In this document: piece by piece, positions 10,515 to 27,868 of the stretch
Layout of the letters: each line of letters opens with the position of its first letter
How positions within the stretch are numbered: position 1 is the stretch's first letter
Source: Planctomycetota bacterium
GTDB taxonomy: Bacteria; Planctomycetota; Phycisphaerae; UBA1845; UTPLA1
NCBI GenBank assembly: GCA_003576905.1
Contig: QEVG01000036.1
Coordinates: forward strand, 1-46,567
Reading direction: 5' to 3'
DNA: 46,567 bases
Notes under the pieces: model-generated
What the model was told of the DNA's origin: nothing
Database searches by the model: none
Seen by the model: only the letters and a program-made list of their open reading frames with translations
Translations under genes and position numbers: made by a program

Positions 10515-13500
10515 ATGAAGAAGCAATACTCTGCATCACTCGCCGTCACCACGGTCGTCGCGGCTTTCGCGCTTGCGGTCGGCCTCTCCTCCCGCGCTTC
10601 GGCGGAAGTCCCCTGGCCGGCAGAAGACCTGAGCAGCGCCGTGAATCTGACCTCAGTCGAAGGACCAGGCACGAACGACTTTTACGTGAATCTAAGCGGG
10701 GTTTTCTGGAATCCGGATACCCGGCGCTTATGGTTGTGCCGCAACGGCGGTACGGGCGGCTCGAAGTTCTGGGTCCTTCGCGAGGACGGCGTGGGCGGCT
10801 TTGAAGTCGACACGCGCAGCGGGCTTCGGGGCGAATGGACCAACTTCGGCGACCTCGAGGCGATCACCCAGGCCGACTACACTGAAGATGTCGTCTACCT
10901 GATGATCGAGGGCGAGGAGCGCATCAAGGAATACGACGTCTCGACGTATGGGACCGCCGTCCTGCGAAATAACTGGAACACGGCACCGCACCTGCCGCTC
11001 AGCGGCGGCTCGGGCGCTGAAGGCATCGTGTTCGTCCCGGACTCATTCCTCGCTGCTCAGAACTTCGTTGACGGCGCCGGCAATCCCTACGTCAGCCAAA
11101 ACGGCATGGGCGGGCTGATGTTTGTCGCGCACCAGAACGGCGGGCGACTCTACGCGTTTGATCTAAACCGCACCAACGGCACGTTCACGTTCGTCGGCGC
11201 GTACAAGACGAATTACGGCGAGAGCTGCGAACTGACTTTCGACCGCAGCGACGGCCGCATGTACATTCTGCACGGCGCTGACTGGAACCGGATCGAGGTT
11301 ACGACGCTCGGTTCCTCTCTCGTATCGGGCGAGCGACGGTTGAACGAGATTCTTACGTATGGCCGCCCGACCGGTAGTCCGACAAGCTGGAATCTCGAAG
11401 GATTCGCCGTGTTCTCCAACTCGGACTGTTCCGGTGGAACGCGCAGCGCTTTCATCACGATCGATGACGGCGGAGCCAACTCTCTGTATTGGTTCCGTTC
11501 GTTCCCCTGTACGTGCGACAGCACCGACGATGACGGCGACGGCGTTGATAACTGCGACGACCTGTGTGCATCGACTCCGGCGGGTCAGCCGGTCGACGCC
11601 TACGGCTGCGCATGCGGCCAGGGCGACCGAACCGGTCCGGACATCTCCAACCATCCGACGGACGGCACCGTCTGTTCGGGCGGCACGCGGCAGTTTTGCG
11701 TGGCGGCGTCGGGTGACGGCACGCTCACCTACCAGTGGCAGCGAAACGGCTCCAATATCAGCGGAGCTACCACGACTTGCTACACCGCGTCGCTGGCGGG
11801 CACGTATCGATGCATCGTGACAGATACATGCGGCTCGGCGACCTCGAATTCGGCGACCCTTACGATCGCGACATCTCCCTCGATCTCCAGCCATCCATCG
11901 CCCGCGACGATCTGTCAGGGCGGTTCGCAGAATCTGTGTGTCACTGCGAGCGGCACGTCCCCGATCAGTTATCAGTGGCAGCGTGACGGCGTCAATATTT
12001 CCGGCGCGACGTCGTCGTGCTATTCGGCGACAGTGGCGGGGGCGTATCGATGCCTTGTGACCAACCCCTGTTCGTCGGTATTAAGCAACAGCGCAACGCT
12101 CACGGTTCACGCCGCGCCCGCCATTGCCGTTGAACCGGCCGGCGGCGCCATCTGTTCGGGCAACGCGCATCCGCTTTGCGTCACCGCCACGGGCGGGGGC
12201 ACGCTGAGTTACCAATGGCAGCGGAATGGCGCGAATATCTCCGGTGCGACCGCATCGTGTCACGATGCCACGATCGCCGGCGATTACCGCTGCATCGTCA
12301 CGAGTGCCTGTGGTTCCGCGACGAGCGCCGTTGTAACCGTTTCGGTGTCGAGCGCCCCGTCCGTTACGTCGCATCCGACGCCTGCCACCGTTTGCAGCGG
12401 GTCAACCAGCCAGTTCTGCGTCAGCGCCTCGGGGACGGGGCCACTGAGTTATCAATGGCAGCGCAACGGCGTCAACGTGTCCGGTGCGACCTCCTCGTGT
12501 TACACGGCCTCGCTGGCCGGCTCGTATCGCTGTGTCGTATCCAATTCATGCGGCTCCGTTGTGTCGAACGCCGCCACGCTGACCGTGAACAGCCCGCCTT
12601 CCATCACCGGCAATCCGCTCTCGACGACGGTATGCAGCGGGAACACGGCTTCATTGTGCGTGACCGCCACCGGAAGCGCGCCGCTCTCCTATCAGTGGCA
12701 GCGCGGCGGCGTGAACATCTCGGGAGCGACCAGCGCCTGTTATTCGGCCTCCCTTGCGGGTACGTACCGCTGCGTCGTATCCAACTCGTGCGGCGCGGTC
12801 ACCAGCCTTTCGGCGACCCTTACCGTTCAGTCGTCGATGCTCTGGTATGCGGACGGTGACAACGACACCTTCGGCAACCCGGCGGTCTTTACAAGCGGCT
12901 GTACGCCACCCGCGGGCTATGTATCGAATAACCTGGACTGCAATGACGCCAATCCCAATGTGAATCCCGGCGCCAGCGACGTGTGCGGCGAGGACCGCAA
13001 TTGCGATGGCTCCTTTGTGGCGCCGACGGTCTGGTACCGCGATCTTGACGGCGACGGCTATGGAAACCCGGCGGTGACGACCCAAGCTTGTGAGAGTTCG
13101 CCCGGTTGGGTCGCCAACGCACTCGACTGCGACGACGGCTCCGACAGCAGGCACCCGGGCGCCACGGAAGTCTGTAACGGCCTCGATGACGACTGCGACG
13201 GGACCGCCGACAACGATGATGACTCAGACGGCGACGGCGTCTCGGACTGTCTGGATGCGTGTCCGGCGACGGCGGCCGGCGAGCCGGTCGATGCAAGCGG
13301 CTGTTCGTGCAGCCAGACCAATCCGACCACCGACACCGATGCAGACGGCGTGCCCGACTGCTCGGACACATGTCCGCAAACCAGACCCGGCGACAGCGTG
13401 AATTCTCAGGGCTGTTCGTGTCTGCAACTTTCCAACGGCGCGGACACCGATCACGACGGCGTGCCGGACTGCCTCGACGCCTGTCCCGATACTCCGAGTC

Positions 13501-13838
13501 ATGTTACGGCCAACGCCGTCGGGTGCAGTTGTCTCCAGCTCAACGGCAATGGCGCAGATGACGATCGAGACGGCGTGACCAACTGCAACGACCTCTGTCC
13601 GTTTACGCCGCCGGGAACCGCCGTGACCGCCAGCGGCTGCTCATCGGTGGCATCGAACGCCGGCACCGGAAACACGGAGGTCGGAAACGAAGTCCTGAGC
13701 ACCACGGACCCGGATGCGGGCGTTGTCGGCATCACGGGTGGCGCGATGTGTGGTGCCGGTATGGCGGCACACGGCATGCTCCTGGCCCTCGCGTTCCTGG
13801 GCTGGGAGCCGCTTTCACGCCGCCGCCACCGCCGCTGA
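10515..13838 (+). CDS. Secreted protein: phytase/SdiA-regulated-like propeller, five Ig repeats, metal-binding and TSP3 repeats, C-terminal anchor
   Basis: The start ATG has AAGG about 7 bases upstream. Residues 1-30 are a signal peptide ending ASA. Residues 31-335 resemble a propeller of the SdiA-regulated or phytase-like group (DLEAITQADY, GAEGIVFVPD, NLEGFAVF). A TSP3-like Asp-rich repeat (DDDGDGVDNCDDLC) follows. Five Ig-like repeats of 80 residues cover 375-774, each with YQWQR and LAGTYRC. Two putative metal-binding motifs follow (DNDTFGNPAV, LDGDGYGNPAV, ending in CDGS and CDGT). Then come four more TSP3-like calcium-binding repeats (DTDADGVPDCSDTCP type). The C-terminus is a short CGAG motif, a hydrophobic segment and SRRRHRR, the form of a C-terminal sorting tail. 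Probably a calcium-stabilised surface-anchored protein; its ligand is unknown. Confidence 0.9.
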   Translation: MKKQYSASLAVTTVVAAFALAVGLSSRASAEVPWPAEDLSSAVNLTSVEGPGTNDFYVNLSGVFWNPDTRRLWLCRNGGTGGSKFWVLREDGVGGFEVDTRSGLRGEWTNFGDLEAITQADYTEDVVYLMIEGEERIKEYDVSTYGTAVLRNNWNTAPHLPLSGGSGAEGIVFVPDSFLAAQNFVDGAGNPYVSQNGMGGLMFVAHQNGGRLYAFDLNRTNGTFTFVGAYKTNYGESCELTFDRSDGRMYILHGADWNRIEVTTLGSSLVSGERRLNEILTYGRPTGSPTSWNLEGFAVFSNSDCSGGTRSAFITIDDGGANSLYWFRSFPCTCDSTDDDGDGVDNCDDLCASTPAGQPVDAYGCACGQGDRTGPDISNHPTDGTVCSGGTRQFCVAASGDGTLTYQWQRNGSNISGATTTCYTASLAGTYRCIVTDTCGSATSNSATLTIATSPSISSHPSPATICQGGSQNLCVTASGTSPISYQWQRDGVNISGATSSCYSATVAGAYRCLVTNPCSSVLSNSATLTVHAAPAIAVEPAGGAICSGNAHPLCVTATGGGTLSYQWQRNGANISGATASCHDATIAGDYRCIVTSACGSATSAVVTVSVSSAPSVTSHPTPATVCSGSTSQFCVSASGTGPLSYQWQRNGVNVSGATSSCYTASLAGSYRCVVSNSCGSVVSNAATLTVNSPPSITGNPLSTTVCSGNTASLCVTATGSAPLSYQWQRGGVNISGATSACYSASLAGTYRCVVSNSCGAVTSLSATLTVQSSMLWYADGDNDTFGNPAVFTSGCTPPAGYVSNNLDCNDANPNVNPGASDVCGEDRNCDGSFVAPTVWYRDLDGDGYGNPAVTTQACESSPGWVANALDCDDGSDSRHPGATEVCNGLDDDCDGTADNDDDSDGDGVSDCLDACPATAAGEPVDASGCSCSQTNPTTDTDADGVPDCSDTCPQTRPGDSVNSQGCSCLQLSNGADTDHDGVPDCLDACPDTPSHVTANAVGCSCLQLNGNGADDDRDGVTNCNDLCPFTPPGTAVTASGCSSVASNAGTGNTEVGNEVLSTTDPDAGVVGITGGAMCGAGMAAHGMLLALAFLGWEPLSRRRHRR
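11637..12836 (+). repeat. Five tandem 240-bp coding repeats (Ig-like)
   Basis: Repeat units begin at 11637, 11877, 12117, 12357 and 12597, each at a proline codon, so all five are exactly 240 bp or 80 codons. Each contains five cysteines, YQWQR, SGAT and a YRC motif. They are diverged in DNA sequence but identical in length. Confidence 0.9.
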
Positions 13839-17100: not shown

Positions 17101-17502
17101 GACAAGAGTCCTGGGATCGCGGGCGTATCCCTGACGTTGGCGCGGTTGCTCATCGAAATGGATGAACAGGCTGCGGCCGAGCCTGTTCTGCGCGAGGTGA
17201 TCGAGATACAGTCGAAGGCGCGGGGGGAAGATTCGATCTATGTGGCGGGGCCCCGCTTGGAACTCGGGCGCTGCCTTACCGTGCAGAATCGCTTCGACGA
17301 AGCCGAAGCGCATCTGACTGCCGCACATGGCATCATTGTCAAATCGCGGCCGGCCGGACACGAACAAAGGGCAAAGGCGAGGCGCGCACTGGCGGACCTG
17401 TACCGCAAGTGGAATCAAACCGCGCCCGATCCCGAACGAGCACGCAAGGCCGCCGAGTGGGCCGCCGACGCAGAGGCCCCCGCAACCGCGCCAGCGGATT
17501 GA
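14125..17502 (+). CDS. Membrane Ser/Thr protein kinase with TPR tail
   Basis: A Hanks-type kinase. The N-terminal 115 residues have [14 protein letters not shown], typical of planctomycete kinases. The kinase domain runs from about 116 to 435: glycine loop [12 protein letters not shown] lysine K150 in VALKV, catalytic D243 in HRDIKPSN, D264 in DFG, and [10 protein letters not shown] transmembrane segment at about 445-470 separates it from a C-terminal region of roughly 600 residues made of about ten TPR-like repeats ([22 protein letters not shown] and similar). TPR arrays bind partner proteins, so the outer part probably senses or recruits a partner while the kinase stays cytoplasmic. Many planctomycete kinases of this form sit next to an ECF sigma gene; this one does not. 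The ribosome site is weak (GGTGA). Confidence 0.95.
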
Positions 17503-17591
17503 CGATTGCCCAGTTGTGCTCGGCTTCGTCGGCGGGCGGATGCCCGGGACCGCCGAGAATCCATACTGATTCACGACGACGGAGACTTCCC

Positions 17592-18905
17592 ATGCTGGAG
17601 AGAAGAGAGTTTCTGCATCGAGCGGGACTGGTCATCGGAGCGGCCGCCGCGTCGACCCTGCTGCCGGGGGCCGAGGCTGAGCCGGATCAGCCCGCGCCGG
17701 CGCCGCTGGAATCCCACGATTGGCGAAGCGTTCGGGCACAGTTTCCATTGGCGAGCGACAAGATTCACCTCGCGTCCTTTTTTCTGGTATCGCACCCCCG
17801 GCCGGTGGCGGAGGCGATCGAGCGCTACCGACGCGCGCTGGATCTGGATCCCATCGGATACGTCCACGAGCACAATGGTCCGGCCTCCGAGCGCGTGCGC
17901 ATCGCGGCGGCGAAATACATGGGAGCACAGGCGGACCTGATAGCCCTGACCGAGAGCACGACCATGGGTCTGGGCCTGGTGTACGGCGGGCTGGATCTCA
18001 AACCCGGGCAGGAAATCGTCTCCACGGTCCACGACCATTATTCGACGCAGATGTCGCTGCAACACCGCGCCGAACGGACGGGCGCGAAGGCGCGAGAAAT
18101 ATCCCTTTATGACGATTCCGCCGCGGTTTCGGTCGACGGGATTGTCGAACAAATGCGAAAGGCGATTTCCGATCGTACGCGGGTCCTTGCGGTCACGTGG
18201 GTTCACTCCTCCACGGGCGTCAAGCTGCCTGTCGCGGAAATGTCCCGGGCGCTCGATGAGATTAATCGCCGTCGGGCGGAGTCGGAGCGGGTCCTTTTCT
18301 GTGTGGATGGAGTGCATGGCTTCGGTGTTGAAGATATGACCGTAGCCGACCTGGGGTGCGATTTCCTGATTGCCGGTACGCACAAGTGGCTCTTCGGACC
18401 GCGGGGAACGGGTCTCATCTGGGGCCGCCGGGACGCATGGCGCGCCGTGCATCCGGTGATTCCCAGCTTCGGATTGAATTATGACGTCTGGTTGGGGACG
18501 GCCGATCGAAGCGATGTTCCCACCGGGGACCTGATGTCGCCGGGGGGTTTTCATTCGTTCGAGCACCGATGGGCGACAACGGAGGCATTCCAGTTTCACA
18601 TGCGGATCGGCAAGGATCGCGTCGCAAAGCGCATTCACGAGCTTAACACGATGGCGAAGACGGAGCTGGCGCGCATGAAACACGTCAAGCTGCGCACGCC
18701 CATGAGCCCGGAACTCTCATCGGGCATTATTTGCTTCGAGGTGGACGGAATGCGTCCCGATGACGTCGTCGCGCGGCTAGCGCGGCGAGGGATTATTGCC
18801 AGCACGAGTCCTTATCGCGTTTCCTGCGCGCGGATCGCGCCGAGCCTGGTCAACGACGAGAACGAGATTGAACGGACGATCGCTGAAATCAAGGCGATGG
18901 CATAA
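17592..18905 (+). CDS. Tat-exported class V aminotransferase-like PLP enzyme
   Basis: A 437-residue fold-type I PLP enzyme of the aminotransferase class V group (cysteine desulfurase / isopenicillin-N epimerase relatives). The PLP lysine is K265 in AGTHKWLFGP, the pyridine-binding aspartate is D239, and the ring-stacking histidine may be H242 in DGVHGF. The N-terminus MLERREFLHRAG with a hydrophobic run and GAEAE is a twin-arginine signal, so the enzyme probably folds with PLP in the cytoplasm and is then exported. The start chosen has GGAG 7 bases upstream; a longer frame from 17409 overlaps the kinase gene and lacks support. It lies about 90 bases after the kinase gene and may share its transcript. 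The substrate cannot be told from sequence. Confidence 0.9.
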   Translation: MLERREFLHRAGLVIGAAAASTLLPGAEAEPDQPAPAPLESHDWRSVRAQFPLASDKIHLASFFLVSHPRPVAEAIERYRRALDLDPIGYVHEHNGPASERVRIAAAKYMGAQADLIALTESTTMGLGLVYGGLDLKPGQEIVSTVHDHYSTQMSLQHRAERTGAKAREISLYDDSAAVSVDGIVEQMRKAISDRTRVLAVTWVHSSTGVKLPVAEMSRALDEINRRRAESERVLFCVDGVHGFGVEDMTVADLGCDFLIAGTHKWLFGPRGTGLIWGRRDAWRAVHPVIPSFGLNYDVWLGTADRSDVPTGDLMSPGGFHSFEHRWATTEAFQFHMRIGKDRVAKRIHELNTMAKTELARMKHVKLRTPMSPELSSGIICFEVDGMRPDDVVARLARRGIIASTSPYRVSCARIAPSLVNDENEIERTIAEIKAMA

Positions 18906-22527: not shown

Positions 22528-23529
22528 CTAGCGGGAGCCCGGAAGCACGCGGGCCCAGTCAAAGGCCGGGCCGGGATCGACTTTGCTTTCGGTAATGTGG
22601 TAGTGGCCGACGATACCGCTGAACCGGGCAAGTTCGTCGGGCGTCAGAGCGTCCGCGCGGATTTCCCCGGTCGGGCGTCTTGGAGCGTCAGGCCGAATGC
22701 GCGGCAGGACGCGCGTCAAAGCGGCAACAAGCTTGGTCAATGAATCGTATTGGGCATCCGTCAGATCGTATTGCCAGAGATCCCGGTTGTGGATGCGGCC
22801 GCGCACCGCCTCATTCTGCGCGGGATAGGCGACGAACTCCGGCGTCCGAATGCCCGTTCTGCCGTCGGTGAGCGGCGGCTCGAAGAACACGCGCCCCTGC
22901 GCGTTTCGAGAATACCACGCATCGAGCTTTGCTCGATCCTCGTACGCCCCCATGTTTGCAATCTCGATGCCGATACTCCGATCATTTGCCGGTCCGGCGT
23001 GCCAGGCGCGTTCCTTGAGGTCCAACGTCTGGTAGATCGTGCCGTCGACATCGAGCAGGAAGTGGACGCTCAATCCCCGAACGTCGTGCAGAACCTTGAA
23101 GCATCTTCGCGATGTGCCGCATGCGTCGTAGTGCAAAACAAACAGGTCGACGTGCTTCCGGAGCATCTCAAGCTCCCAGCCGTTCTCTCGAACCGCCGCG
23201 GTATCATCCGGGGGCATGTGGCGACGGAAACTCCCGTATCGCGCGGGAGAATCTGCGTGGACCGCATCGGCGGGGAGCGCACGGTCCGGCGTGAAACGGC
23301 ACTCCACCCGATAGGCGTCGTACCCGCACGGATCGAGCCACAGAACGACCGGCGCGCCGGTATGAAAGAACCGCCCGCAGGCGACGATCTCTTCGCCATG
23401 CCGTTCATGGGGCGTGCCCGGGCGGGGACCGACACAGCCGGCGGCGATGAGGCAGCCCCAAAACGGGAGCGCTGCGACGGCACGTATGCCGCGTATGGGG
23501 TGTGTCCATCGGCATGCCTGTATCACCAT
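22528..23529 (-). CDS. Lipoprotein N-acetylmuramoyl-L-alanine amidase (Amidase_2)
   Basis: A 333-residue amidase_2/AmpD-like zinc amidase, which cuts the bond between N-acetylmuramic acid and the first L-alanine of the peptidoglycan peptide. The domain shows FVLHYDACG (first zinc His), VHFLLDVDGTIYQ, ERAWHAG, SIGIEIAN, and GHYHITESKVDPGPAFDW (late zinc ligand and the K/DPG active-site block). The N-terminus has a hydrophobic segment ending in lipobox AAGC, so it is probably anchored in a membrane facing the periplasm. The start ATG at 23527-23529 has GGGAG 6 bases upstream; the longer frame to 23859 overlaps nagB and is rejected. An insertion of about 100 residues separates the lipobox from the first zinc His. 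It diverges from nagB-lmbE. Confidence 0.92.
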   Translation of the reverse strand: MVIQACRWTHPIRGIRAVAALPFWGCLIAAGCVGPRPGTPHERHGEEIVACGRFFHTGAPVVLWLDPCGYDAYRVECRFTPDRALPADAVHADSPARYGSFRRHMPPDDTAAVRENGWELEMLRKHVDLFVLHYDACGTSRRCFKVLHDVRGLSVHFLLDVDGTIYQTLDLKERAWHAGPANDRSIGIEIANMGAYEDRAKLDAWYSRNAQGRVFFEPPLTDGRTGIRTPEFVAYPAQNEAVRGRIHNRDLWQYDLTDAQYDSLTKLVAALTRVLPRIRPDAPRRPTGEIRADALTPDELARFSGIVGHYHITESKVDPGPAFDWARVLPGSR

Positions 23530-23695
23530 ATCAGCTCCCTCCCCCTTCCGCGCCCGGGGCTCGAACGATCCCGGGTCGACCACCGATAAAGCCGCGGACG
23601 ATATTTCTAATGCGCCCTCGCCGAATGTTAATCCGATGTCCGGATTTGGACACGGGTGTGACCGCGCGGCGAGCGGCTTGTTACAGGGTTTTCTC

Positions 23696-25645
23696 ATGAT
23701 CGAATCGACTCTGCGGTTTTCCGCCAGGCCGGACCAGCCGCCTGCCAAGGACCGGCGCTGCGAAGTATCTGTATTCGAATCGAGCGTGACTGCCAGTGCC
23801 GCCGTGGCGCGCGAAATCTCTGAACTGATCCGCGAGCGAGCGCGCGAGAACCGGCGCATTGTCCTTGGGCTTGCGACGGGTTCGACGCCGCAGGACTTCT
23901 ATGACGAGCTGGTGCGCATGCACCGCCGGGAGGGCCTTTCATTCAAGAACGTCGTCACGTTCAATCTCGACGAATACTGGCCCATGAACCCGGACGCGCT
24001 GCAGAGTTATCACCGGTTCATGGCGGAGTCACTTTTCGATCACGTCGACATTCCGCGGGACCACGTGAATATCCCGGACGGGCGTCTTCCGCAGGAGAAG
24101 ATCGCGGAATATTGTGAAAGTTACGAGCGCAGGATCCGAGAACTTGGCGGTATTGACTTTCAGATTCTTGGCATCGGCCGGACGGGGCATATCGGCTTCA
24201 ACGAGCCCGGTTCTCCGCGAAACAGCCGAACGCGCCTGATTACGCTGGACCGCGTGACGCGCCTCGACGCCGCGAGCGATTTCTTCGGCGAGCGGAATGT
24301 GCCGCGCCGGGCCATCACGATGGGCGTCGGCACGATTCTCGAAGCCCGCCGGATCGTGCTCATGGCGTTCGGCGAGGGAAAGGCCCCGATCCTTCGCCGC
24401 GCCGTCGAAGGCGAGGTTACTCCGGCCGTCGCCGCGAGCTTTTTACAGGAGCATCCGCACGTGTCGGTCGTGCTCGATCGCGCGGCTGCGAGTGAATTGA
24501 CCCCAGTAAAGACGCCGTGGCTTCTCGGCCCGATTGACCGCTACGGCAGAACATGGGATGAGCGGACGACGCGCCGCGCCGTCATCTGGCTGGCTCACCA
24601 GCTGAACAAACCCATCCTCAAGCTCGTTGAAGAGGACTACAACGAAAACGGCCTTCAGGAACTGCTTTCGGCCCGCGGCGCGGCCTATGACGTGAACATC
24701 GAAGTGTTCAAAAGGATTCAGCAGACCATTACGGGATGGCCCGGCGGAAAGCCCGAGGGAAACGGAAAGGGTCCCGGCTCGGAGCCTTATCCCAAGCGCG
24801 TGATCGTCTTCAGTCCGCATCCGGACGACGATGTGATCTCAATGGGTGGGACCCTCATTCGGCTCTGCGAGCAGGGCCACGATGTGCACGTCGCGTATCA
24901 GACTTCGGGGAACATCGCCGTCTGGGACGACGAGGCGATGCGGTACGCCGACTTTGTGTCCGAATTCTGCGAGGAGTTCTCGCTCGGGTCCGATGGGCAG
25001 GTCGCCGGCATACGGGAGAAAATCGCAAGGTTCATCGGCAGCAAGAAGCCGGGAGACATCGATAACATCGAGTTGCAGCGCATCAAGGCCCTGATTCGCC
25101 GAACCGAAGCCGCGGCCGGCGCCCGGTTTGCCGGGGTCCGGCAGGACCGGATTCATTTCCTCAACATGCCTTTCTATGAAACCGGCCGTGTACGCAAGGA
25201 TCGGCTGTCCGACGCGGACATCCGACTCGTCATTGAACTTCTCGAAAAGGTGCGGCCGCATCAGATCTACGCGGCCGGCGACCTGTCGGACCCGCACGGG
25301 ACACATCGCGTGTGCCTTTCCGCGATCAACCAGGCAATCGAGCGCCTCGCGCCGCAGGACTGGATGGCCTCCTGCGCCGTCTGGTATTACCGCGGTGCGT
25401 GGCAGGAGTGGGAGCCGCACGAAATCGACATGGCCGTGCCGCTCAGTCCGGAGGAGGTCGACTTGAAGCGGCTGGCCATCTTTCGGCATCAATCTCAGAA
25501 GGACAAGGCGCTGTTCCCTGGTCCATCGGATCCGCGCGAGTTCTGGCAGCGCGCCGAGGATCGCAATCGCCATACGGCGGAGCTCTACGACAAGCTGGGT
25601 CTGCCCGAGTACCAGGCGATTGAAGCATTCGTTCGACGGGGCTGA
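23696..25645 (+). CDS. nagB: NagB-like deaminase fused to LmbE/PIG-L deacetylase
   Basis: A 649-residue fusion. Residues 1-275 resemble glucosamine-6-phosphate deaminase, which converts glucosamine-6-phosphate to fructose-6-phosphate and ammonia: D92 in LDEY, H165 and E170 in GHIGFNEPG. The position of the E. coli NagB active-site Asp141 is T163 here (GIGRTGH instead of GNDGH). Residues about 365-620 are a LmbE/PIG-L zinc deacetylase: PHPDDD with H375, D377 and D378, and a second metal site DPHGTH with H534 and H537. A linker joins them. The same fusion is known from Bacteroidetes and planctomycetes, where the two activities are thought to handle amino sugars in sequence. ATG 23696 has AGGG 7 bases upstream. 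The protein has no signal peptide and is cytoplasmic. Confidence 0.9.
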   Translation: MIESTLRFSARPDQPPAKDRRCEVSVFESSVTASAAVAREISELIRERARENRRIVLGLATGSTPQDFYDELVRMHRREGLSFKNVVTFNLDEYWPMNPDALQSYHRFMAESLFDHVDIPRDHVNIPDGRLPQEKIAEYCESYERRIRELGGIDFQILGIGRTGHIGFNEPGSPRNSRTRLITLDRVTRLDAASDFFGERNVPRRAITMGVGTILEARRIVLMAFGEGKAPILRRAVEGEVTPAVAASFLQEHPHVSVVLDRAAASELTPVKTPWLLGPIDRYGRTWDERTTRRAVIWLAHQLNKPILKLVEEDYNENGLQELLSARGAAYDVNIEVFKRIQQTITGWPGGKPEGNGKGPGSEPYPKRVIVFSPHPDDDVISMGGTLIRLCEQGHDVHVAYQTSGNIAVWDDEAMRYADFVSEFCEEFSLGSDGQVAGIREKIARFIGSKKPGDIDNIELQRIKALIRRTEAAAGARFAGVRQDRIHFLNMPFYETGRVRKDRLSDADIRLVIELLEKVRPHQIYAAGDLSDPHGTHRVCLSAINQAIERLAPQDWMASCAVWYYRGAWQEWEPHEIDMAVPLSPEEVDLKRLAIFRHQSQKDKALFPGPSDPREFWQRAEDRNRHTAELYDKLGLPEYQAIEAFVRRG

Positions 25646-25876: not shown

Positions 25877-27034
25877 ATGCAGAAGCTCCCGACACGCATC
25901 CTGCTCGCCAAGGTGGGCCTCGACGGCCATGACCGCGGCGTCAAAGTCCTTGCTCGAGGTCTTCGCGACGCCGGCATGGAGGTCATTTACACCGGTCTCT
26001 GGCAGACGCCAGCGGCTGCGGCGAAGGCCGCCGTGGAAGAGGATGCCGATGTTCTGGGCGTCAGCTTCCATAGCGCCGCCCACATGACGCTCGTCCCGAT
26101 CATCATGGAGGAGATGAAGGCGCGGGGCAGGCCCGACATGCCGGTTGTCATCGGGGGGATCATTCCACCCGATGATGTCCAGGCCATGAAGGATGCCGGT
26201 TGCGCCGCCGTGCTCGAGACGGAAGCGTCGATGCAGTCGATTGTCGATACCCTGACCGCGCTGGCCGACAAGAGCCGCGCCGCCCGGTCGGCGGCGCACG
26301 CCAACGGCACGCTGGACAAATGGATCGATGCGGCCGGGAAGGGCGATCGAACGGCCCTTGGACGCGTGCTCACGTGGATCGAGAATTCCTCCACTCCAGA
26401 TGAGGCGGCGGCCCGCCTGAAGGGTCAGACGGACGGCACCCTGATCGTCGGAATGACCGGCCCGCCCGGCGTGGGCAAGAGCACGCTCATCGGCCGCCTC
26501 CTCAAGGAGTTCCGCTCGCGCGGCAAGCAGGTGGCAGTCGTTGCCGTCGACCCGGCAAGCCCCCTCACCGGCGGCGCCCTCCTCGGCGATCGTGCCCGGA
26601 TGACCCAGAACGCGGGAGACGCGGGCGTGTTTCTGCGCTCGTCGGCGAGCCGCGGGCAGCTCGGCGGCCTCGCGCCCTCGACGGCCGCCATGGTTCAGGC
26701 CATCCGCCGATCCAAGGTGGATGTGGTGATGATCGAAACCGTGGGCGCGGGGCAGAACGACGTCAGCGTATATCACCTAGCCAGCCCCCTGGTTCTGTTG
26801 ATGATGCCGGGCGCGGGCGACGACCTCCAACTCGAAAAGGCGGGCATTACGGAAGTGGCGGAGATCTTCGTCATCAACAAGGCGGACCTGCCGGGGGCGA
26901 CGCGGCTGGAGGCGCAGATACGCGATACGCTCGGCTCGGGCCGCCCGATCGTCCAGACGGTGGCAAGCCACGGACAGGGGATCAGCGAGCTGGCCGATGC
27001 GATCCTGGCCCACAAGCCCAAGGCGCGCCGGTAG
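25877..27034 (+). CDS. B12-binding domain fused to MeaB/ArgK-type GTPase (IcmF N-terminal half)
   Basis: A 385-residue fusion. Residues 1-135 form a methylmalonyl-CoA-mutase-type cobalamin-binding domain: DGHDRG with the cobalt-ligand His, then GVSFHSAAHMTL and VVIGGIIPPDD. Residues about 150-385 are a MeaB/ArgK G-protein: Walker A GPPGVGKST, VDPASPLTGGALLGDRARM, IETVGAGQND, GAGDDLQ and NKAD. MeaB proteins load and repair cobalamin in acyl-CoA mutases using GTP. Stand-alone MeaB has roughly 60 more residues after the last GTPase block, forming a dimer arm; here the protein ends right after GISELADAI. The order B12 domain then truncated G domain equals the first half of IcmF. No mutase catalytic barrel lies in the window. 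AAGAGG precedes the ATG. etfB follows after 33 bases. Confidence 0.9.
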   Translation: MQKLPTRILLAKVGLDGHDRGVKVLARGLRDAGMEVIYTGLWQTPAAAAKAAVEEDADVLGVSFHSAAHMTLVPIIMEEMKARGRPDMPVVIGGIIPPDDVQAMKDAGCAAVLETEASMQSIVDTLTALADKSRAARSAAHANGTLDKWIDAAGKGDRTALGRVLTWIENSSTPDEAAARLKGQTDGTLIVGMTGPPGVGKSTLIGRLLKEFRSRGKQVAVVAVDPASPLTGGALLGDRARMTQNAGDAGVFLRSSASRGQLGGLAPSTAAMVQAIRRSKVDVVMIETVGAGQNDVSVYHLASPLVLLMMPGAGDDLQLEKAGITEVAEIFVINKADLPGATRLEAQIRDTLGSGRPIVQTVASHGQGISELADAILAHKPKARR

Positions 27035-27067: not shown

Positions 27068-27868
27068 ATGAAGATACTGACTCTCGTTAAGTGCGTTCCG
27101 GAATCAACGGCGAACATCCGGATCAAGCCGGACGGCAGCGGCATCGAGACCGCCGGCGTGAAATTCGTGATGAACCCGTTCTGCGAGTTCGCCGTGGAAG
27201 CGGCGCTTCAGTTCAAGGAGAAGAACGCGGCGGCAAAGGCGGAGATTACGGCCCTGACCGTCGGCCCCGCGGCCCATGCCGACGTCCTTCGCACGGCCTT
27301 TGCGATGGGCGTGGATCATGCGGTGCATGTGTGCGACGACGCGCTTAAAAACATCGATGAACTGGCCCTGGCCCGGGTGATCGCCGCCGCCATCAAGGAC
27401 GGGGGTTTCGATCTCATCATCGCCGGCAAGCATGCCATCGACTATGACAGCGGACAACTGGGCCCGGCACTGGCCGAGTGCCTCGCCTGGCCGCACGTCG
27501 GCGCGGTCATCGCGTGGGACTGGGCGGCGGATTTCAAGAACTGCACCGTGCGGCGCCGCATCGAAGGTGCGGAGGAAGTCGTCGAGTTGAAACTGCCCGC
27601 GCTGCTCACTGTCGACAAGGGTCTCGTCGAGCCGCGCTATCCGTCCCTGCCCGGCCTGATGAAAGCCAAGAAGCGGCCGATCGACGTAAAAAACCTCGCG
27701 GCCCTTGGCCTGTCCGCAGCGGACTTCTCTGTAGGCGCGATCGGAACAACCATGGGCGAGTTCGCGCCGCCGCCGCCGCGACCGCCGGGGCGAAAGCTCT
27801 CGGGCGAGCCGGCAGACATGGCGAAGGAACTGGTTCGCATTCTCCGCGAGGAAGTCAAGGCGATCTGA
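27068..27868 (+). CDS. etfB: Electron transfer flavoprotein beta subunit
   Basis: A 266-residue ETF beta subunit. ETF is a soluble FAD/AMP heterodimer that takes electrons from acyl-CoA dehydrogenases. The N-terminus MKILTLVKCVPES, the block NPFCEFAVEAALQ, AGKHAIDYDSGQLGP and the family signature around EGAEEVVELKLPALLTVDKG (about 165-185) are all present, and length is normal. AGG lies 7 bases before the ATG. It follows the B12-MeaB fusion by 33 bases and precedes an SGNH gene by 39, so they probably share a transcript. The partner alpha subunit (etfA), normally adjacent, is absent from this window. Confidence 0.93.
   Translation: MKILTLVKCVPESTANIRIKPDGSGIETAGVKFVMNPFCEFAVEAALQFKEKNAAAKAEITALTVGPAAHADVLRTAFAMGVDHAVHVCDDALKNIDELALARVIAAAIKDGGFDLIIAGKHAIDYDSGQLGPALAECLAWPHVGAVIAWDWAADFKNCTVRRRIEGAEEVVELKLPALLTVDKGLVEPRYPSLPGLMKAKKRPIDVKNLAALGLSAADFSVGAIGTTMGEFAPPPPRPPGRKLSGEPADMAKELVRILREEVKAI

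Follow-up and report, generated by a model that had tools for sequence, protein, structure and literature searches.

Thr163, at the position of E. coli NagB Asp141, is an ordinary residue of a NagB-LmbE fusion family of Planctomycetota and Bacteroidota

Introduction

Several solved glucosamine-6-phosphate (GlcN-6-P) deaminases of the NagB type, those of E. coli, Vibrio, Borrelia and Pasteurella, have an Asp at the position of E. coli Asp141. The catalytic triad of the E. coli enzyme is made of Asp72, His143 and Glu148. Asp141 and Glu148 are listed among its activator-binding residues in PMC4281351. The NagB of B. subtilis carries an Asn instead of this Asp and is active, with a reported KM of 0.13 mM, that of E. 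coli NagB being 0.55 mM (PMC9812318). Therefore, an Asp at this position does not define a GlcN-6-P deaminase. Simulations of the S. mutans NagB point to Arg127 and His130, together with other residues, as holding GlcN6P (PMC8369159).

GlcNAc-6-P is produced from MurNAc-6-P by MurQ (PMC5790795). The available part of PMC5583593 gives known replacements of NagB and of NagK but mentions none of NagA. No NagB-LmbE fusion is mentioned in the available parts of PMC5790795, PMC2693436 and PMC5902328, and our literature search for a protein joining NagB to LmbE (PIG-L) found no paper; subscription papers were outside its scope and earlier work may exist.

The present analysis concerns such a fusion, encoded by a planctomycete contig (QEVG01000036.1) whose stretch of 46,567 nucleotides is hereafter called the window. 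The initial annotation had reported a Thr in place of Asp141 and had suggested that this change may mark either a different reaction or a family-specific mechanism.

Results

The fusion gene (Table 1), translated from the ATG at position 23696, encodes a protein of 649 aa, and this start agrees with homologues that align from residue 1 (74% identity over residues 1-647 for both L002 and L003). The protein belongs to the already named family NF002557 (PRK02122, "glucosamine-6-phosphate deaminase-like protein"), whose model it matches over residues 16-647 with 1003.8 bits for a cut-off of 384. It also exceeds the curated cut-off of the equivalog TIGR00502 (nagB; 258.9 bits vs 236.9) and carries both PF01182 and PF02585 (68.1 bits for the latter, whose gathering score is 28.2). 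No match of the fusion protein to TIGR00221 (NagA) was listed at E values up to 0.001. The divergent neighbor encodes an Amidase_2 protein with a weak match to AmpD (49 bits, below the cut-off of 143); because its longest ORF overlaps the fusion gene, its true start is probably located further inside.

Table 1. Features of the fusion locus, in positions of the window
Feature	Position	Strand	Evidence
Divergent neighbor, Amidase_2 (AmpD-like) ORF	22528..23859	-	PF01510, E 1.1e-22
NagB-LmbE fusion gene	23696..25645	+	649 aa; NCBIfam NF002557 (PRK02122)
NagB half (residues 22-285)	23759..24550	+	VIA-align to 1dea, 2bkv; PF01182 at 32-245
Asp92, counterpart of E. coli Asp72	23969..23971	+	Alignment; 158/158 fusion rows
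Arg162	24179..24181	+	Arg in 146/146 Thr/Ser fusion rows
Thr163 (ACG), replaces E. coli Asp141	24182..24184	+	Translation, codon, alignments
His165, counterpart of E. coli His143	24188..24190	+	Alignment; 158/158 fusion rows
Glu170, counterpart of E. coli Glu148	24203..24205	+	Alignment; 158/158 fusion rows
Linker region (residues 286-365)	24551..24790	+	Between VIA-align matched ranges of both halves
LmbE/PIG-L half (residues 366-649)	24791..25642	+	PF02585 at 370-547; VIA-align to BshB, Dac, MshB
HPDDD motif (375-379)	24818..24832	+	Alignment
HGTH motif (534-537)	25295..25306	+	Alignment

Other genes of the window, all on the + strand, include (i) a fusion of a B12-binding domain with a MeaB GTPase (25877-27034; PF02310, PF03308), an IcmF-like arrangement without the mutase part, (ii) directly 3' of it, an electron transfer flavoprotein beta-like gene (27068-27868), (iii) a class V aminotransferase gene (17409-18905) matching the PvdN family with 463 bits, below the cut-off of 650, and (iv) a gene (10515-13838) whose 1107-aa product has a MopE-type Cu-binding motif in addition to several Ig domains.

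An AlphaFold2 model built from 62 fusions has a mean pLDDT of 91.2 and a pTM of 0.88. With VIA-align, its residues 22-285 superpose on E. coli NagB 1dea (Z 36.7, rmsd 1.8, 254 aligned residues) and its residues 22-269 on B. subtilis NagB 2bkv (Z 36.5, rmsd 1.2, 242 aligned). Residues 366-649 superpose best, among named folds, on BshB 6p2t (Z 23.6, rmsd 2.4, 207 aligned), followed by diacetylchitobiose deacetylase (Dac) 3wl3 (Z 22.4, rmsd 4.5, 235 aligned) and MshB 1q74 (Z 18.5, rmsd 3.0, 213 aligned).

The initial annotation had described the LmbE half as intact, which agrees with the presence of both its HPDDD and HGTH motifs, the HPDD/HxxH signature of PIG-L/LmbE proteins. The HPDDD motif has a metal-binding or catalytic role in BshB and MshB and probably has it here as well, and HGTH presumably has a role in this half too. 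No variation was seen at H375, D378 or D379 across 158 fusion rows, D377 and H534 are each found in 156 rows and H537 in 157; in the 62-row fusion alignment, H375, D378, D379 and H537 are all invariant. The deviations consist of Ala at D377 (two rows), Asn at H534 (two rows) and Tyr at H537 (one row), and the few LmbE halves with these substitutions may have lost their activity.

The sequence GIGRTGH occupies residues 159-165 of the fusion, and Thr163 aligns without any gap with the Asp of E. coli NagB (gvgndgh) and the Asn of B. subtilis NagB (gigrngh). Thus, the reported replacement and the retention of Asp92, His165 and Glu170, counterparts of the three E. coli residues, are borne out by translation and alignment. 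The fusion set gathers the window, the best 80 of 265 relatives found by the contig search, the 29 Planctomycetota loci with the best scores (the own copy excepted), 30 Bacteroidota loci and 18 copies that we chose; collapsing identical cores reduced the 158 rows to 156, and L001 and L124, which are copies from the own genome, were not kept. Among these 156 distinct fusions (window included), residue 163 is Thr in 131, Ser in 13 and Asn in 12; at 80% non-redundancy, the counts are 71 Thr, 8 Asn and 5 Ser. Thr, about whose universality in such fusions the initial annotation had asked, is therefore prevailing but not universal, and Asp, whose frequent occurrence in close orthologues had been named beforehand as counter-evidence, is found in none of the 156. 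A sequencing error, a wrong frame or chance were rejected as origins of Thr163 since loci from several phyla share this residue.

Standalone NagB-like rows (63 distinct out of 64, all chosen by us, one gene being present twice as L147 and L237) show Asn in 39, Asp in 18, Thr in 3, Ser in 2 and His in 1; they include the contig-edge L258 and 10 divergent rows with an Asp at the Glu170 site. The 52 rows with a Glu at this site have 29 Asn, 17 Asp, 3 Thr, 2 Ser and 1 His. The 22 lactonase-like rows, left out of these counts, all have an Asp.

Thr or Ser at position 163 occurs only behind Arg162, in 146/146 fusion rows and 5/5 standalone rows; Asn is paired with Gly, Arg, Val or Ser at position 162 in fusions. 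From the matching spacing, Arg162 and His165 may be equivalent to Arg127 and His130 of S. mutans NagB. Furthermore, D92, H165, E170, R180 and K229 are invariant in the 158 fusion rows. Arg189, aligned with the phosphate ligand Arg172 of E. coli NagB, is conserved in 140 of them, the window fusion included, and replaced by another residue in 18. Two fusions, L062 and L068, have the motif GRTSH, with a Ser replacing the glycine ahead of the catalytic His; they were missed by the motif search, whose 80-row alignment thus holds 78 of the 80 loci next to L001 and the window.

A tree of 143 NagB domains, obtained by a quick method and with support below 80 for 67 of its 140 inner branches, unites 84 fusions with six standalone rows (SH-aLRT 99); the next larger group (support 98) contains the standalone L180 (Thr) and L187 (Ser). 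On this tree, the fusion state requires five changes, three of them forced by strongly supported branches, and a single origin of the fusion followed by losses is possible from this topology. Residue 163 also requires five changes (between Thr, Ser and Asn) within fusions, and Thr and Asn copies coexist in single Bacteroidota genomes (G328, G332 and G410).

The genome that carries the window, whose completeness is estimated at 97%, encodes the fusion as the single PF01182 gene found, without a second NagB, and has a second PIG-L gene. NagA was not found in it: the best of its 23 candidates, all scored, reached 26.8 bits for a cut-off of 225.65. AnmK, which carries out a step in feeding GlcNAc-6-P, is present (423 bits, cut-off 387), as is MurQ (361.5 bits, cut-off 302), and their genes are adjacent on another contig than the fusion.

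In 292 Planctomycetota genomes, with at most 4-7 candidates scored per genome, the fusion exceeds its cut-off in 42 and NagA in 45, with no overlap (0/42 fusion genomes vs 45/250 others; Fisher p = 8e-4, relatedness ignored). NagA is found in 24 of the 72 genomes that have only a standalone NagB (p = 5e-6 vs the 42 fusion genomes, relatedness ignored). Standalone NagBs were defined as listed NF002557 matches without the whole fusion (about 173-303 bits in Planctomycetota and 214-316 in Bacteroidota); the PF01182 search, topped mostly by 6-phosphogluconolactonase-like genes, did not enter the NagB counts. No NagA-like match (at least about 133 bits) was detected in 17 of the 42 fusion planctomycetes; in the remaining 25, a weaker match stays below the cut-off, and in seven of these it adjoins a divergent nagB-like gene. 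Such a divergent gene, seen in L200-L207, has the motif GENGHLAFNDPP (GENAH in L206) and an Asp at the Glu170 site, and adjoins a nagA-like gene in 7/8 genomes.

Among 148 Bacteroidota, with at most 7 or 12 candidates scored per genome, 56 have the fusion, 20 have NagA and 11 have both. A simple exclusion between the fusion and NagA was therefore rejected in this phylum (11/56 vs 9/92 others; p = 0.14, relatedness ignored). NagA is found in 8 of the 12 genomes with only a standalone NagB (p = 0.0024 vs the 11/56 fusion genomes, relatedness ignored) and in none of the 10 with both the fusion and a standalone NagB. No NagA-like match (at least about 151 bits) was detected in 42 of the 56 fusion genomes. 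Sixteen fusion genomes were reached through the loci, one of which (G298) also belongs to the Bacteroidota sample; NagA exceeds the cut-off in three of them and reaches 193 and 209 bits in two more.

MurQ (at least about 252 bits; 106 genomes, 100 over the cut-off) is present in all 56 fusion Bacteroidota (54 over the cut-off), compared to 50 of the 92 others. In Planctomycetota (E up to 1e-70; 161 genomes, 126 over the cut-off), its enrichment in fusion genomes is not significant (28/42 vs 133/250; p = 0.13, relatedness ignored). Neither the fusion nor NagA nor a NagA-like match was found in 40 of the 106 Bacteroidota and 87 of the 161 Planctomycetota that have MurQ. Therefore, MurQ demands neither the fusion nor NagA, and the idea that a deacetylase is strictly needed wherever MurQ occurs was not borne out.

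Neighborhoods were compared for 139 loci and the window; one member per protein cluster was checked for its family and the rest were placed by clustering. Neighbor genes were re-called after a first clustering, whose cluster 2 then probably corresponds to antisense ORFs over the fusion. The most common neighbors (a cluster of 32 loci) are Gfo/Idh-type genes, a name that we presume from their sequence. An amino-sugar neighbor was identified in a minority of loci only, most neighbors being without annotation. In L059, AnmK, MurQ and the fusion lie on one strand, with 59 bp from MurQ to the fusion, and the genome has no NagA over the cut-off. AnmK is also found near the fusion in L175 and L176 (by protein clusters), and MurQ in L157, L163 and L174, all three from genomes without NagA over the cut-off. 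Other neighbors include GH20 (L126, L151, L152 and L161), ROK (L075, L118, L153 and L162), a NagX-like gene (L047 and others; 190 bits in L047, below the cut-off of 480) and, in some loci, adjoining SusD and sodium-solute symporter genes. NagA lies near the fusion in L156, judging by position, and nagA immediately adjoins the fusion in G375. Seven planctomycete loci (L132, L133, L136 and L138-L141), whose fusions have a Ser at the Thr163 site, share an adjoining gene of one cluster, which encodes a separate PIG-L protein in the tested member L141.

Discussion

This work shows that Thr163 is an ordinary residue of the PRK02122 fusions, one that marks the family and very probably not a different reaction. 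Since the B. subtilis NagB is active with an Asn, position 163 tolerates more than an Asp in an active enzyme. The family-specific part of the initial proposal is thus retained (131 Thr and no Asp among 156 fusions), and its other part, a different reaction, was rejected given this active Asn enzyme and the exchange of Thr, Ser and Asn between fusions. It should be emphasized that E. coli Asp141 is not to be read as required in all NagBs.

Family membership and conserved residues make the prediction that the NagB half is a GlcN-6-P deaminase well supported. This half would open and isomerize GlcN-6-P and release ammonia: Asp92 would move the proton, His165 with Glu170 would open the ring, and Arg162, Thr64 and Lys229 would hold the substrate. 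Thr163 would merely replace the partner beside His165, at a position that would accept Asp, Asn, Thr or Ser. From gene content, we infer that the LmbE half may act on GlcNAc-6-P. The single protein would then convert GlcNAc-6-P into Fru-6-P, acetate and ammonia, and its substrate would be supplied by cell-wall recycling (AmpD-like amidase, AnmK and MurQ). Taken as a whole, a PRK02122 fusion with a family-typical Thr163, a working deaminase half and an LmbE half acting as GlcNAc-6-P deacetylase is the explanation towards which we lean slightly. Several observations speak against it: the many MurQ genomes with neither enzyme, the lack of a significant MurQ enrichment in fusion planctomycetes, NagA being no rarer in fusion Bacteroidota than in the others, the sub-threshold NagA-like matches of 25 fusion planctomycetes, the nagA next to the fusion in G375, the second PIG-L gene of the own genome, the variation at Arg189 and the small share of loci with an identified amino-sugar neighbor.

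Generalizing, NagB-LmbE fusions could be a widespread bifunctional GlcNAc-6-P to Fru-6-P enzyme, with LmbE as a non-orthologous stand-in for NagA when Planctomycetota and Bacteroidota recycle cell walls and amino sugars, and with Arg162-Thr163 as the ring-opening site of the fused form; this proposal is tentative, and we would put it just short of an even chance. Should the LmbE half indeed deacetylate GlcNAc-6-P, it would fill a missing step in genomes devoid of NagA and give a concrete function to a family hitherto named "deaminase-like".

The LmbE half could, alternatively, act elsewhere (on free GlcNAc, chitobiose, a GlcNAc-thiol precursor or a GlcNAc-1-P compound) beside an ordinary NagB half, the fusion channeling a different product. 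LmbE relatives use varied GlcNAc conjugates, the best-scoring named folds are BshB, then Dac and MshB, H375, D378, D379 and H537 are invariant in the 62-row alignment, and the fusion coexists with NagA in 11 of 56 Bacteroidota. However, a GlcN-6-P deaminase as partner points to a 6-phosphate substrate, and NagA over the cut-off is lacking in 42/42 Planctomycetota and 45/56 Bacteroidota fusion genomes and in the own genome, which makes this alternative rather unlikely. A comparably low probability can be given to Thr163 tuning the deaminase (its pH profile or its response to GlcNAc-6-P) with the reaction unchanged. The listing of E. coli Asp141 and Glu148 among activator-binding residues (PMC4281351) and the constant association of Thr or Ser with Arg162 are consistent with such tuning, and a fused enzyme would itself use GlcNAc-6-P as a substrate; however, Thr, Ser and Asn interchange, and neutral drift would give the same picture. 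A changed or lost NagB reaction marked by Thr163, which the absence of Asp from all distinct fusions and the location of this site two residues ahead of the catalytic His could suggest, is very improbable given the Asn of the active B. subtilis enzyme, the swaps within the fusion group, the five invariant residues of the NagB half and the TIGR00502 score.

Compared to known systems, the fusion resembles NagA (TIGR00221, an amidohydrolase) by the proposed reaction only, the families being different. With BshB and diacetylchitobiose deacetylase, its LmbE half shares the fold and the HPDD and HxxH motifs, but shows only about 22-24% identity and is joined to a NagB. With E. coli NagB (1dea), the fusion shares the fold, the counterparts of Asp72, His143 and Glu148 and the substrate-binding Lys; it differs by Thr163 instead of Asp141 and by the additional linker and LmbE half. 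The solved NagB that is closest to it by sequence is that of B. subtilis (2bkv), whose motif GIGRNGH is devoid of Asp in an enzyme that is nevertheless active; this protein has an Asn instead of the Thr, 242 aa and no LmbE half. Overall, the window protein is most like the other members of NF002557/PRK02122, which have the same two halves, match it over nearly its full length and usually carry a Thr at this position, sequence divergence being the only difference found.
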